Source: Gammaproteobacteria bacterium Milos-ODIII6
GTDB lineage: Bacteria > Pseudomonadota > Gammaproteobacteria > Chromatiales > Chromatiaceae
Assembly (NCBI GenBank): GCA_029228645.1
Contig: JAPTHR010000001.1
Coordinates: 439,601-484,979 of the forward strand
DNA length: 45,379 nt
Direction of reading: 5' to 3'
A program made the translations under genes and the position numbers. The notes under the pieces were generated by a model. The model made no database searches, was not told the DNA's origin, and was given only the letters and a program-made list of their open reading frames with translations. This document shows positions 37,707 to 43,815 of this stretch, in pieces. Every line of letters starts with the position of its first letter. The stretch's first letter is position 1.

Positions 37707-38140
37707 AACAGCCGCTTGATGGTGGGAACACTCCACCGGCCGTAGCCGCATAGATTTCGGCTCGATGCCGGATCGTAGGCCATGTGCAGCCTTCCGATCC
37801 CCCACTTGTGGTCAGGCTCGGAGGATTATCCCCTCCCCACCTGCGGGCAGCCTCAAGCGACTATCCCCTCCCCACGTGTGGGCAGCCTCAAGCGACTATC
37901 CCCTCCCCACGTGTGGGCAGTCTCAAGCAACTATCCCCTCCCCACGAGTGGGCAGAGTCGGCCGATTATTCCCTCCCCACCTGCGGGCAAGCCGCAAGCA
38001 ACTATCCCCTCCCCACTTGTGGGGAGGGCTAGGGTGGGGAGCCAGGGTGGGGAGAAGCTTCCTGTTCGCAACCCCCCAAAAGCCACTTCAAGAAAATCCA
38101 CCCCAGATGCCCGCCCCAAGGGCGGGGCAACAGCAAGGAC
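37707..38140. other. 434-base gene-free stretch dominated by a repeat array
   Basis: Between the DUF2927 gene and the Spy-like gene there is no convincing coding sequence. 37707-37789 shows nothing I can name. 37790-38055 is the tandem repeat array and its G-rich tail. 38056-38140 contains a GCCCGCCCC/GGGGCGGGC-like palindrome (about 38109-38129), which may end transcription of the minus-strand gene. Long open frames here exist only because the repeat lacks stop codons. Confidence 0.75.
37790..38035. repeat. 35-bp tandem repeat array, six units plus a degenerate one
   Basis: Units start at 37825, 37860, 37895, 37930, 37965 and 38001. They are 35 bases long, except the fifth (36). Each begins A(C/T)TAT(C/T)CCCTCCCCAC, followed by a G-rich half (GTGGGCAG or similar) and a variable CTCAAGC end. 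A degenerate unit precedes at about 37790. The last unit keeps a perfect 10-bp palindrome, CCCTCCCCAC / GTGGGGAGGG (38007-38016 with 38019-38028); in the others the right arm has decayed. There are no unique spacers, so it is not a CRISPR. Confidence 0.9.
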
Positions 38141-39957: not shown

Positions 39958-40251
39958 TCAATCGCAGTCGTTGTCTGCATATACCTCGCCTGTTTCGGTC
40001 GTGTACCTTGTGCCGACGAACATCATGTTCTGCACCCGGTCGAATTGCGTGTCCATTGCGCGGTCGACGGTCTCTTCGTGCAGGCCGTCGTAGATATGCA
40101 CCCGGCCCTGGCGCTCCATGCGTTCCTCGGCTGCCGTCGGCGCCAGCAGTCGGCGTTCCTGGAATCCCTCGGCCGAGGCCGATTGCGCCTGGAGCAACGG
40201 GAGCATCAGGAACAGCGAAGCACGGCAGCGGGTTTTGGACTGGATATTCAT
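39958..40251 (-). CDS. Small exported protein, partner of the divergent winged-helix regulator
   Basis: I do not recognise a named family. The 97-residue protein starts at the ATG at 40251 after AGGAGA. Residues 1-27 are a signal peptide (basic start, LFLMLPLLQAQSASA). The mature part is acidic and polar: EGFQERRLLAPTAAEERMER, then GRVHIYDGLHEETVDRAMDT and QFDRVQNMMFV, ending NDCD with its only mature cysteine. It is divergent from a CadC-like regulator across 240 bases. The broken ORF at 43124-43261 shares its RLLAPT motif and divergent arrangement, which supports it as a real conserved gene. Role unknown; a ligand, cofactor or target of the regulator are all possible. Confidence 0.75.
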   Translation of the reverse strand: MNIQSKTRCRASLFLMLPLLQAQSASAEGFQERRLLAPTAAEERMERQGRVHIYDGLHEETVDRAMDTQFDRVQNMMFVGTRYTTETGEVYADNDCD

Positions 40252-40379
40252 GATCGTTCTCCTATCTTTTTTGAATGGCTTTCGTGGCTGGGAGACTGCG
40301 TGGAAACCGGTGTCTCGCCGTGCCATGGTGGTTTTCTAGCGGTGCCGGCGACAGAAGTCCGGACGGAAAGCGGACTGGA

Positions 40380-40403
40380 GAACTAAGAAAGGACGACGAC
40401 AAT
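40380..40403. promoter_or_regulatory. 24-bp element shared with the second module copy (site 1)
   Basis: A purine-rich element beginning GAACTAAGAAAGGACGACG. It matches 18 of 24 bases at 43388-43411, without gaps. It lies 112 bases before the regulator start here and 116 bases in the second copy. Downstream it runs into an A+T-rich stretch (AATAAAAATAACAAAAAC), and a GGGGCGCCCC palindrome sits at 40441-40450. It could be an operator or core-promoter element of the divergent pair. Confidence 0.45.
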
Positions 40404-40491
40404 AAAAATAACAAAAACAGTGTGTTACAAACTAAACTACGGGGCGCCCCGGCGATGTGGCGACCTACGGAACGCCTGCAGGGAGGGGGAG

Positions 40492-42186
40492 ATGGACATT
40501 CGGGAGGCGAAGAGCTTTGATGTCGGCGGGTGGCGGGTAACGCCCGATGAGGACGTGGTCAGCCGGGATGGCCGTAGCGAGCGTCTCGAGCCACTGGCGA
40601 TGCAGGTACTCGTCTACCTCGCCTCGCGCGCGGGCGAGGTCGTGTCGCGCTCGGATCTGGAAGAAGCGGTCTGGAAGGGCGGCGTGGTCAGCTATGATTC
40701 GGTAACGAGTACCGTGATCAAGCTGCGCAAGGCGTTAGGGGACGACGCCCGCAAGCCAACCTACATAACCACTATCCCCAAGCGCGGGTACCAGTTGATC
40801 GCGCCGGTCTCGCTGGTGGTCGACGAACCGCCGGCACAAGCGGCATCCCCGGAATCCGTCGCCCCAGTCCCTTCGGCCAGGGCAGATCGTCGTAAGGTCG
40901 CCACGCTGGTCGCGGTCCTGATCACGGCCGCCGCAGCGATCTTGGGCGTGCTGACACAATTGACGCCGTCCGCGGTCGAATCCGACGGCCAACCCGTGAG
41001 TTCGCCGCCGTCTATCGTGGTGCTGCCATTTCAGAACCTCAGTGACGACCCGTCACAGGAGCGGTTCGCAGACGGGATCACCGAAGACATCATCACCGAT
41101 CTGTCCGGGATAACCGGCGTGCGGGTTATCGCGAGCAATACCTCTTTCTCTTACAAGGGCCGGCAGGTTTCGGCCCAGGAGATCGGAGACGAACTCCATA
41201 TACATTACGTACTCGAGGGAAGCGTACGCCGGCGAGGGGATTCGATACGCGTCAACGCCCAGCTGGTCGATGTTCGAACGGCGTTTCAGGTCTGGGCGCA
41301 CCGTTATGACCGTGCCGCCCAGGAGACATTCGCGGTTCAGGACGAGCTGACGAACCAGATCGTCGAGACGCTCGCAGTCCAACTCAGCCCGCAGGAAAGG
41401 GAGCGCCTGGCGCGCCAACCGACGAACAACCTGGCGGCGTATGACCATTTCCAGGAGGGCCAGCGCCTCGGAAAGATCAACACGAAAGACAGCAACATCG
41501 AGGCGCAGCACGCGTACCGCAAAGCCATTGAGACCGACCCGACGTACGGAAGGGCCTATGGGGCGCTTGCCTATACCCTGGCCTATAACTTTCTCCGCGG
41601 CTGGAACGATGCGCCAATGCAGACGATCGACCGGGCACTCGAACTGGCCCAGCGGGGCGTCGAGCTGGATGCCTCGATTCCCCAGAGCTTCTGGTCACTC
41701 GGCTATGTGCACCTGATGCGCAAGGAGTTTGCACTCGCGGAACAGGCGGTGGAAACGTCGCTCAGCATCGCCCCCAACTATGCCGACGGCTTTGGCCTGC
41801 TGGCGCTGATCAATAACAGTCTGGGCAATGCGAAAGCTGCGATCGCCAATATCCAAAAAGGGATGCAACTGAACCCTTACTATACCTGGGACTACCCTTA
41901 CAACCTTGGCCGCGCCTATTACGTGCTCGGCGAATATGACAGGGCGATTCCTGAACTCGAAAGCGCGAAAACTCGCAATCCCAATGCCATGCCTGTACGG
42001 CTTATGTTGGCAGCCTGCTACGTTCGTACCGGTCGCGCAGCTGATGCGGAGTGGGAAATCGAGGAGGCGCAGGCAATCAACCCTCACGAAACCCTGTCCC
42101 ACCTTGCGAATACATTTGCAACCAACGATGCGGAATTGCTTCAACGGTTCCTCCATGACCTGCGTGAAGCCGGCTTGCCTGAATAG
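40492..42186 (+). CDS. CadC/ToxR-like membrane regulator: winged helix, TM, TolB-N-like domain, TPRs
   Basis: The protein has 564 residues from the ATG at 40492, after GGGAGGGGGAG. Residues about 10-104 form an OmpR/PhoB-type DNA-binding winged helix (GGWRVTPDEDVV, LEPLAMQVLVYLASRAGEVV, TVIKLRKALGDD, TIPKRGYQLIAPV). About 135-157 is one membrane helix. The periplasmic part starts with SIVVLPFQNLSDDPSQERFA and VLEGSVRRRGDSIRVNAQLV, a TolB-N/FlgO-like domain, followed from about 320 by TPR-like helices. It lacks a response-regulator receiver domain, so it is a one-component membrane regulator that probably senses a periplasmic partner. The divergent exported gene is the obvious candidate target or ligand. 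Confidence 0.88.
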   Translation: MDIREAKSFDVGGWRVTPDEDVVSRDGRSERLEPLAMQVLVYLASRAGEVVSRSDLEEAVWKGGVVSYDSVTSTVIKLRKALGDDARKPTYITTIPKRGYQLIAPVSLVVDEPPAQAASPESVAPVPSARADRRKVATLVAVLITAAAAILGVLTQLTPSAVESDGQPVSSPPSIVVLPFQNLSDDPSQERFADGITEDIITDLSGITGVRVIASNTSFSYKGRQVSAQEIGDELHIHYVLEGSVRRRGDSIRVNAQLVDVRTAFQVWAHRYDRAAQETFAVQDELTNQIVETLAVQLSPQERERLARQPTNNLAAYDHFQEGQRLGKINTKDSNIEAQHAYRKAIETDPTYGRAYGALAYTLAYNFLRGWNDAPMQTIDRALELAQRGVELDASIPQSFWSLGYVHLMRKEFALAEQAVETSLSIAPNYADGFGLLALINNSLGNAKAAIANIQKGMQLNPYYTWDYPYNLGRAYYVLGEYDRAIPELESAKTRNPNAMPVRLMLAACYVRTGRAADAEWEIEEAQAINPHETLSHLANTFATNDAELLQRFLHDLREAGLPE

Positions 42187-42218
42187 CGAGTTCCCTGGCC
42201 GACCACGATCCGATCGTG

Positions 42219-42590
42219 TGAACTGACCCCCTCGAAAGCTGCACAGACTATAGTGCGGCGAGGAGGGACAGATGAGCGAGCCAGAAATTGAGATCAAGCG
42301 CTGGACGGCGAAGCGCAAAACGCAGGTTGTACTGGACATTCTGAAGGGCAAGACAACAGTCGCTGAGGTTGCCCGGCAGCATGACCTGACGCCTGGGGAG
42401 ATTGAGCGCTGGGTGGATGAAGGCATCAGTGGCATGGAGAACAACTTCCGTGCGCGCCCACGCGATATCCGCGAGCAGTATGAGCGCAAGCTGGAAGAAG
42501 CCCATGCGGCCCTGGGTGAGAAGGAGTTGGAGCTCAAAGCGCTAAAAAAGTGGCAGCGCCTGCTCGACGAGGAAGAGAATTCGTAAGGTC
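42219..42590 (+). mobile_element. Remnant of an IS3-type insertion sequence
   Basis: The left end appears to be TGAACTGACCCCCTCGAAAG (from 42219), of the style found at IS3-family termini, followed by an orfA. No orfB integrase and no matching right end are present before the next gene, so only about 370 bases remain. It inserted 33 bases after the stop of the regulator, which it does not damage. Confidence 0.65.
42272..42586 (+). CDS. IS3-type transposase OrfA (helix-turn-helix subunit)
   Basis: The protein has 104 residues: EIKRWTAKRKTQVVLDILKG and TTVAEVARQHDLTPGEIERW form a helix-turn-helix, followed by a coiled-coil-like helix (REQYERKLEEAHAALGEKEL) ending LLDEEENS. This is the N-terminal DNA-binding protein of an IS3-like element whose catalytic OrfB is missing, so it cannot transpose by itself. 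AGGAGGG precedes the ATG. Confidence 0.75.
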   Translation: MSEPEIEIKRWTAKRKTQVVLDILKGKTTVAEVARQHDLTPGEIERWVDEGISGMENNFRARPRDIREQYERKLEEAHAALGEKELELKALKKWQRLLDEEENS

Positions 42591-42713
42591 GTTGCAGGCG
42601 CAACTGGCGGCAGACTATTGGCCTTAAAGTCGTAACTGCTACCTTTGCGGCCATTCCAGAAACTAAAAGCCCCACCGAAGTGAGGCTTCCATAGATATGA
42701 GGTTGAATCAGGC

Positions 42714-43118
42714 TTACAGCTGGTTACCATCAACGATGTTAGATAATTTCACATATTCTTTATCTTTCCACTTTCCTGATGTGCCTGTCCCTTTATATGT
42801 GCCATCGCCCATATCTTTCATTTTATTGCAATAATCTCTATTAGATGTATGGCACAACTCGCCCTCATCACTCATACTTATAATTTTTCGTTCTTTAGTC
42901 TTTCCGGCCTTTTTTCCTGTCAGAAAATGAATTGTATTGGTTTTACACTCAGAGTCGATATGTATTTTGAAGGTCGTGCCAGAAATTAAGTTTTCACCAT
43001 CAAAAGTTTTTCCGCAAAACGTAGCTTGACGCTGTTCTTTAGTCATAAACTCTTCAGCATAAGATATAGGAGATGCCACAATAAGTGCTATTGCCGTATT
43101 CAATAAAATTTTTCGCAT
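42714..43118 (-). CDS. A+T-rich gene for a small exported cysteine-containing protein
   Basis: No named family recognised. The protein has 134 residues from the ATG at 43118, after AAGGAG. Signal peptide MRKILLNTAIALIVASPISYA is cut before EEF. The mature part begins EEFMTKEQRQATFCGKTFDG and has four cysteines (35, 58, 88, 96), enough for two disulfides. GDGTYKGTGTSGKWKDKEYV near the end looks like a beta-rich domain. Two 60-base lines I counted (42781-42900) are 37-38% G+C, far below the surroundings, so it was probably acquired. It occupies the place where the C-terminal part of the truncated exported paralogue (43124-43261) should be. Confidence 0.75.
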   Translation of the reverse strand: MRKILLNTAIALIVASPISYAEEFMTKEQRQATFCGKTFDGENLISGTTFKIHIDSECKTNTIHFLTGKKAGKTKERKIISMSDEGELCHTSNRDYCNKMKDMGDGTYKGTGTSGKWKDKEYVKLSNIVDGNQL

Positions 43119-43123
43119 GATTA

Positions 43124-43261
43124 TCACTCCTTGAAAGCCGGTGTCGGTGCCAGTAGTCGCTCTTTCTGCCAATCGTCATCCGCTGCCGTTGCGTGACCCG
43201 TGCTGCTTAATGCTGTGGCAAAGACGACGGTCAAAAATCGGTCACATTTCTTGATTCCCAT
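43124..43261 (-). pseudogene. Truncated paralogue of the exported partner protein
   Basis: A 45-codon frame from the ATG at 43261 (after GGAGAACTCGC): MGIKKCDRFLTVVFATALSS and a signal peptide end (GHATA), then DDDWQKERLLAPTPAFKE and a stop. WQKERLLAPTPA aligns with FQERRLLAPTAA of the intact protein at 39958-40251, at the same distance after the signal peptide. The rest of the gene is missing: the sequence switches at about 43130 to the A+T-rich gene, whose ribosome site AAGGAG forms the last codons here. The start is 242 bases from a divergent winged-helix stub, matching the 240 bases of the intact module. Confidence 0.7.
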
Positions 43262-43387
43262 TGCGAGTTCTCCCGAGTTTGTTTGATGATCGGAGTTCGG
43301 CCGTCGCTGAATCTCGGTGATTTCGTCACGGCTGCCGGATTCTTGGAGCGGAGTTTTGACCGCTCCGGAGTTGTTGTCTCGACGGAA

Positions 43388-43411
43388 GAACGAAGGAAAA
43401 ACGACGGAAAT
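43388..43411. promoter_or_regulatory. 24-bp element shared with the first module copy (site 2)
   Basis: Begins GAACGAAGGAAAAACGACGG and matches the element at 40380-40403 in 18 of 24 positions, 116 bases before the regulator stub. A+T-rich sequence follows (ATATTTTAGGATATATAAAT). Upstream in the same spacer is an inverted repeat GGAGCGG/CCGCTCC (43345-43351 with 43360-43366), a possible operator not obviously conserved in the first copy. Confidence 0.45.
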
Positions 43412-43503
43412 GCGACGATATTTTAGGATATATAAATCAATTGCTTACGACTCCGTCGTCGTGTTACGAACGAGAGCGAAATCTCTTGTGAAGGCTGGTA
43501 AGA

Positions 43504-43668
43504 ATGGATGAATCGGTGTTTTTCGTCGGCGGATGGGAGGTCAACCCGCAGGCCGGGATCATTACCGACGGCCCAAAAACCTCCCGCCTGGAACCGAGGG
43601 CGATGGAGGTCTTGGTCTATCTGGCATCCAAGCCGGATACGGTTGTGTCCCGAGAGAAGCTAGAACGG
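43504..43668 (+). pseudogene. Truncated winged-helix regulator (second module copy)
   Basis: 55 codons from the ATG at 43504: ESVFFVGGWEVNPQAGIITD and SRLEPRAMEVLVYLASKPDT, then VVSREKLER. They align with residues 6-57 of the intact regulator (FDVGGWRVTP, RLEPLAMQVLVYLASRAGEV, VSRSDLEE). The frame then enters a MITE-like element at 43669 and the recognition helix, membrane segment and sensor are lost. The stub cannot bind DNA as a normal winged helix. It is a decayed paralogue, not a new short gene. Confidence 0.85.
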
Positions 43669-43815
43669 AATCAAACGGGTCAGTTTCGATTGATCCACCG
43701 AGCCCGGGATCACAAAATGAGGAGGTCTCGGCATATCGCATCCTTGCAATCATTGGCCAAACCGTGAGGCTATCCCCTAGCGTGGCGAGATCAATCGAAA
43801 CTGACCCGTTTGATT
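43669..43815. mobile_element. MITE-like element with perfect 27-bp terminal inverted repeats
   Basis: The left end (43669-43695, starting AATCAAACGGGTCAGTTTCG) is the exact reverse complement of the right end (43789-43815). The interior is 93 bases with no meaningful coding. The total length is 147 bases. The bases outside the ends (GAACGG on the left, TTACTG on the right) do not form a target duplication, and the flanks belong to two different genes: a regulator stub and a permease C-terminal half. This fits recombination between two copies of the element with loss of what lay between. Confidence 0.85.

Follow-up and report, generated by a model that had tools for sequence, protein, structure and literature searches.

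The window considered here, a 45,379-nucleotide stretch of a contig of Gammaproteobacteria bacterium Milos-ODIII6, a relative of the purple sulfur bacteria, carries two divergent gene pairs of the same layout. In pair 1, which is intact, the gene for a 97-residue protein with a signal-peptide-like start (39958-40251, minus strand; the protein and its family are called SP here) is separated by 240 bases from the gene for a CadC-type regulator of 564 residues (40492-42186, plus strand). In pair 2, which is decayed, an exported-protein stub of 45 codons (43124-43261, minus strand) and the winged helix-turn-helix (wHTH) stub of a second regulator (43504-43668, plus strand) lie on either side of a gap of 242 bases. 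This layout had been described in the original prediction, made from the letters of the window, and its coordinates, strands and lengths are correct. Each gap also holds a presumed operator of tandem 11-bp repeats, a feature absent from the original prediction. The repeats of pair 2 occupy 43380-43423, with three scored units at 43380-43412 and a fourth recognized by eye, while the degenerate repeats of pair 1 occupy 40361-40404, with three scored units at 40361-40393 and a fourth, again, recognized by eye. In the intact pair, the regulator is probably a one-component protein of the membrane, and the repeats its private operator for control of the divergent exported gene.

The homology proposed between the two pairs holds for both partners. 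In two-sequence BLASTP comparisons, the wHTH stub is identical to the intact wHTH at 26 of 49 positions (E = 4e-15), while the match between the exported stub and SP is short, at just 9 of 18 positions (E = 1e-4). The hidden Markov model (HMM) of the SP family matches the exported stub over 25 residues, with E = 1.3e-6 in a single comparison. Judged by their sequences, pairs 1 and 2 are diverged relatives. To call them duplicated was too strong, since the stub wHTH is closer to the regulator at locus L181, which belongs to another genome (62% identity), than to the intact regulator of the window (53%); a fresh or recent duplication of the pair is thereby ruled out.

The regulator has the build of E. 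coli CadC and other ToxR-like transmembrane regulators: a wHTH domain at residues ~1-110, a single transmembrane segment at residues 136-154, and a periplasmic sensor of an alpha/beta part and tetratricopeptide repeats (TPRs) at residues 158-564. The winged helix matches PF00486 (E = 9.7e-16), TPRs are also found, and only the 19-residue windows that start at residues 134-142 exceed a mean hydropathy of 1.6, so that its description as a CadC-like membrane regulator is well founded. Residues 10-106 match the wHTH domain of CadC (5ju7, E = 7.2e-22). The periplasmic part is predicted with a predicted local distance difference test score (pLDDT) of 91.4, and the predicted sensor matches CadC entries 3ly7, 3ly8, 3ly9 and 3lya over 334-351 columns with TM-scores of 0.68-0.71 by target length (0.71 for 3lya, E = 5.6e-8); by E-value, plain TPR proteins outrank CadC among these matches. 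The organism’s own genome has three such regulators in 3.5 Mb. The window regulator is not CadC proper, for which the cut-off of equivalog NF007540 is 400 bits; it scores 131.9. CadC acts on cadBA, the genes of a decarboxylase and of an antiporter in the inner membrane, whereas the presumed target of the window regulator is the gene of an exported protein. The sites differ as well. Those of CadC are AT-rich TTAxxxxT elements placed head-to-head in the available part of PMC5430869, whereas the sites presumed here run head-to-tail with an 11-bp step. PhoB/PhoP-type response regulators have a receiver domain, whereas the window protein is bound to the membrane, has a sensor of its own and gives no match to Response_reg at E 1. 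In the main text of PMC10269533, a paper on transmembrane regulators, the words TPR, tetratricopeptide, divergent and adjacent are absent.

SP is a real and undescribed protein family. The window protein scores 1.78 by a simple signal-peptide rule, marginally below the cut of 1.8. No known family is matched in Pfam (E 1), NCBIfam or PHROGs (E 0.1), and no relative is found by sequence in the PDB (best E 1.5). The mature protein is predicted to be a small alpha/beta fold of 70 residues (pLDDT 89.1), for which the PDB offers nothing at E 0.001 (the best match has 0.94). The family consensus, RRLF.P....L..E..GRI.IYDGL....V..AMD..F.RI..MMFVRT, is followed by an acidic tail, and there is an invariant cysteine at or near the C-terminal end. 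Among 210 genomes of the same family the SP profile has matches in 38, and among 369 genomes of the class in 15; both counts include the own genome. A scan of genome contigs gives 28 SP loci, including those in Thiocapsa, Thiohalocapsa, Halochromatium, Sedimenticola and one record labelled Thiobacillus. When 398 genomes of the phylum were first searched with a single sequence, five non-own matches with E 0.0046-0.0061 were taken as chance and excluded, as was one further match (G420, E 0.0025). Seven stretches of viral contigs fit a pattern and none encodes a relative; Rfam gives no match at its gathering scores. The own genome has three SP copies. Apart from that of pair 1, one is located behind a Crp-type gene (L018, G000:C2:13664) and one opposite a LuxR-type response regulator gene (L019, G000:C12:210803).

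When the gaps of close loci are compared side by side, they contain head-to-tail tandem units of about CGACGGAAAAA. Close loci with unrelated exported genes keep at least three 11-bp repeats, 91-108 bp before the regulator. Over 62 loci, self-similarity peaks at lag 11 (z 10.9, with z 4.2 at lag 12), and the lag-11 signal is present both in 12 close loci (z 8.0) and in 44 loci below 48% identity (z 7.3); in 160 control divergent regions it is z -4.6. In pair 2 the repeat is found unprompted, with period 11, by Tandem Repeats Finder. The arrangement, at least two direct repeats that follow each other at 11-bp steps in the gap, is that of a PhoB-type tandem operator, to which the regulator would bind.

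A model of three units was trained on ten close loci, starting from L254 and with the window excluded. Eight of the ten training loci score 29.8-36.4 bits, all at 95-108 bp before the regulator start. The held-out pair 2 reaches 37.6 bits at 91 bp before its regulator, a score equalled in none of 1000 shuffles, while the held-out pair 1 gives a weak 19.0 bits at 98 bp before its regulator, equalled in 3 of 1000 shuffles. Among the 160 controls, the 99th percentile is 11.0 bits and the maximum 19.5 bits. An earlier model, seeded from the pair-2 repeat, gave the same picture, but its seed makes it circular for pair 2 and no conclusion here is drawn from it.

The repeat pattern, which pair 2 fits with zero mismatches, is hardly found elsewhere. 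With up to three mismatches, the own genome (G000, 3.5 Mb) has three matches at two places only, pair 2 and a site just before the sister regulator on contig C19, and the reversed control pattern has none. In 11 relatives there are 15 matches, spread over eight genomes and 10 places, and eight of these places lie just before the regulator. The pho box is likewise made of direct repeats with an 11-bp step. In the available text of PMC4832192, PhoP of M. tuberculosis has direct 7-bp motifs with a 4-bp spacer, which again gives an 11-bp step, and the window repeats resemble these PhoB/PhoP-type tandem boxes. Even though the weak repeats of pair 1 would agree with a site for some other DNA-binding protein, or a DNA structure, unrelated to the regulator, this explanation is very improbable: 10 of the 12 places in the 12 genomes precede such a regulator (the pair-2 stub counted), and the 11-bp step is typical of this winged-helix class as far as the same part of PMC4832192 goes. 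Promoter-like sites number two, with 1.8 expected. The word GTGTTACRAAC, seen by eye in both gaps of the window, was discarded as being at chance level by a rough estimate.

While the position of the repeats is steady, the gene across the gap is not. The regulator set comprises 61 loci, namely those of the best matches and the two own sisters, and the SP HMM matches just two of them, the window’s own and that in G931. Across the gap from the regulator with the highest identity (64%, in G604) is a shorter protein, which blastp joins to SP. By blastp, a remote relative at L209 is joined to SP. The regulators at L211-L214 face a probable alpha/beta hydrolase, whose best NCBIfam match is far below its cut-off. 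Other opposite genes encode a small family with an EIGDIGP motif, proteins with twin-arginine-like starts, and cupin-like and ankyrin-like proteins, the last three being named by eye. Thirty-five divergent genes, hand-picked, fall into 19 groups, and the eight motif-bearing training loci alone have five exported families, with no blastp link between them. A simple signal-peptide rule of our own (cut 1.8) was applied to 39 divergent genes, doubtful short open reading frames (ORFs) included. It is positive for 25 of them, and for 23 of the 37 that are not SP genes, compared with 23 of 227 genes in the control set (Fisher 1.8e-11 for the comparison without SP, relatedness uncorrected). The window’s own pair is absent from this test, in which the simple gene caller took an overlapping ORF. 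The best reading is that the regulator and the type of operator persist over evolution and the exported gene is exchanged. The repeats might serve only the regulator’s own promoter, with the exported neighbour otherwise controlled or constitutive, as the steady distance between motif and regulator start (91-108 bp) beside a changing opposite gene would allow. Such autocontrol is nevertheless unlikely, since alone it leaves the enrichment of exported proteins among the opposite genes unexplained, and the two genes remain divergent whichever of at least five exported families lies opposite.

The same relationship can be viewed from the side of SP. Merging SP loci with an identical core reduced 111 HMM rows to 93, of which five are without upstream sequence; L119, one SP gene with an internal stop, is counted as two of the 93 rows, and Pfam domains were sought in a choice of 30 neighbouring proteins. 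A wHTH-TPR regulator is located within 500 bp of SP, always divergently, at 10 of the 88 loci with upstream sequence. The chance expectation is about 0.1 in 88, a rough estimate from three such regulators in 3.5 Mb with one gene per kb assumed, so the linkage is real, yet it is not the rule. At the other 78 loci no such gene is present within 500 bp, which, taken literally, goes against the pairing as originally proposed. A Crp-type gene is near SP at 11 of the 93 loci (9 upstream, 2 downstream), a divergent LuxR-type response regulator at four and a divergent AraC gene at one; 67 of the 93 have none of these four kinds of neighbour. The repeat motif is found upstream of SP at 0 of the 11 Crp-type-linked loci, at 0 of the 4 LuxR-type-linked loci and at 1 of the 63 loci without a labelled neighbour. 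FNR/CRP-like palindromes (up to two mismatches) occur upstream of SP at 1 and 0 of the 11 Crp-linked loci, no excess over elsewhere. The idea that SP is a dedicated partner of this regulator was rejected as a rule, both by the linkage (10 of 88) and by the HMM matches (2 of 61).

An SP tree of 88 rows, five of the 93 with short cores being omitted and L097 (regulator 738 bp away) being labelled as linked, is poorly resolved, 40 of its 85 inner branches being open. On this tree the wHTH label requires eight changes, the starred branches forcing at least two changes, and 6 of 500 shuffles are as low, which means that the label is somewhat clustered. These changes indicate that SP has probably swapped regulators more than once. 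Three loci have arrangements of their own. L086 has two regulator/exported-gene modules in series on one contig, one with SP and the other with a 298-residue exported protein; at L159 one Crp-type gene is flanked by two SP genes; and at L085 two SP genes are convergent, about 3.6 kb apart.

These neighbourhoods bear on the suggestion that the exported protein is a periplasmic signal or adaptor and the regulator its receptor. In its full form, SP would be a periplasmic ligand, adaptor or co-sensor in a sensor complex with the regulator, as ToxS is for ToxR. SP is exported, the sensor domain is periplasmic, and the divergent linkage of 10 in 88 is far above the roughly estimated 0.1, all of which such a complex would account for. 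SP also occurs, however, beside Crp-type genes, which encode proteins with no periplasmic part, and beside LuxR-type and AraC genes; at most SP loci (78 of 88) this regulator is not present within 500 bp; and just 2 of 61 close regulator loci have an SP HMM match, others facing unrelated exported proteins. A sensor complex is therefore quite unlikely, and the suggestion is left unsupported. In the co-component systems ToxR/ToxS and VtrA/VtrC, as described in the available part of PMC9214523, a membrane wHTH regulator also adjoins a fast-changing partner gene acting outside the cytoplasm. That partner, however, belongs to the same operon and has a periplasmic fold of the lipocalin-like kind, whereas the window partner is a divergent gene whose signal-peptide protein has a predicted alpha/beta fold.

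Several observations weigh against a private operator that controls the exported gene. The main soft spot is that the repeats of pair 1 are weaker than those of the eight motif-bearing relatives, and that this sole intact pair of the window is inside the control range (19.0 bits vs a maximum of 19.5). Two training loci, L180 and L217, are without the motif, and L180 is SP-linked. Among 50 further loci, eight are above the 99th percentile of the controls, and two of these are near-copies of training loci. Three of the 11 relatives have no match to the pattern, and the reversed control pattern gave seven matches in the 11 relatives. Just 3 of the 11 SP genes linked to this regulator exceed 11 bits, so that most distant SP-linked regulators would use another sequence or none, and the SP-linked subset also has an excess of self-similarity at lags 12 and 13. 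Finally, the Fisher test ignores relatedness, and the signal peptides in it were scored by our own simple rule.

Despite these points, the private operator remains the explanation that we consider likely. The domain architecture, the exported neighbours, the position and period of the repeats and their near-absence elsewhere are computed; binding by the regulator, the direction of control, the signal and the role of SP are inferred. The intact pair would be a self-contained regulatory module. Its regulator, located in the inner membrane, would sense a condition of the envelope through the periplasmic alpha/beta-TPR domain, and its cytoplasmic winged helix would bind the head-to-tail 11-bp repeats between the two genes. 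Once bound, it would control the divergent gene of the small exported protein and probably its own gene too. By analogy with CadC and PhoB, activation is more likely than repression. The operator would be private in the sense that regulators of the clade have such a site in the adjacent gap and almost none in the rest of the genome. The shared repeat and the exported opposite genes support the proposal that the neighbouring genes work together, and the variant that fits is a regulator with a single target, the repeat being found between the genes and hardly elsewhere in the 12 genomes and the opposite gene often being exported. Feedback of the exported protein on the regulator is possible. A broader picture, which is conceivable though rather doubtful, is that of exchangeable one-gene envelope control loops, in which a conserved membrane sensor and its private 11-bp tandem operator drive whatever exported gene is opposite and the sensor reads a state that the product changes, perhaps the product itself. 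SP would then be one cargo, also taken under Crp-type and LuxR-type regulators.

Pair 2 is best read as a dead module with a surviving operator. Both of its members are broken: the exported gene ends after 45 codons and adjoins an AT-rich ORF, and the regulator is cut at 43668/43669, and a search of the own genome at E 0.001 did not find its remainder. The truncation is caused by an element of 147 bp (43669-43815) with perfect 27-bp inverted ends, which resembles a miniature inverted-repeat transposable element (MITE) and has partial matches on contigs C25, C20 and C19 and elsewhere on C1. No target duplication is seen at the element. It is followed by an amino acid permease gene without its N-terminal part, and the truncated regulator and truncated permease flank the MITE-like element as if two copies had recombined. 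The AT-rich ORF (42717-43118, minus strand), whose apparently exported product has no family match, lies between the exported stub and a transposase ORF (42272-42586, PF01527). A tandem array at 37800-38023 has a 35-bp (or 70-bp) unit in 6.4 copies with 81% matches.

The build of the regulator is CadC-like, and with it come a testable candidate operator and an undescribed exported family. What is known of CadC-type membrane winged-helix regulators comes largely from a handful of enteric systems, and recognizing their sites is difficult. An operator that is recognizable, fixed in position and nearly private would turn poorly described regulators of this type into testable regulator-target pairs, and would mark many uncharacterized exported proteins as likely products of an envelope response.

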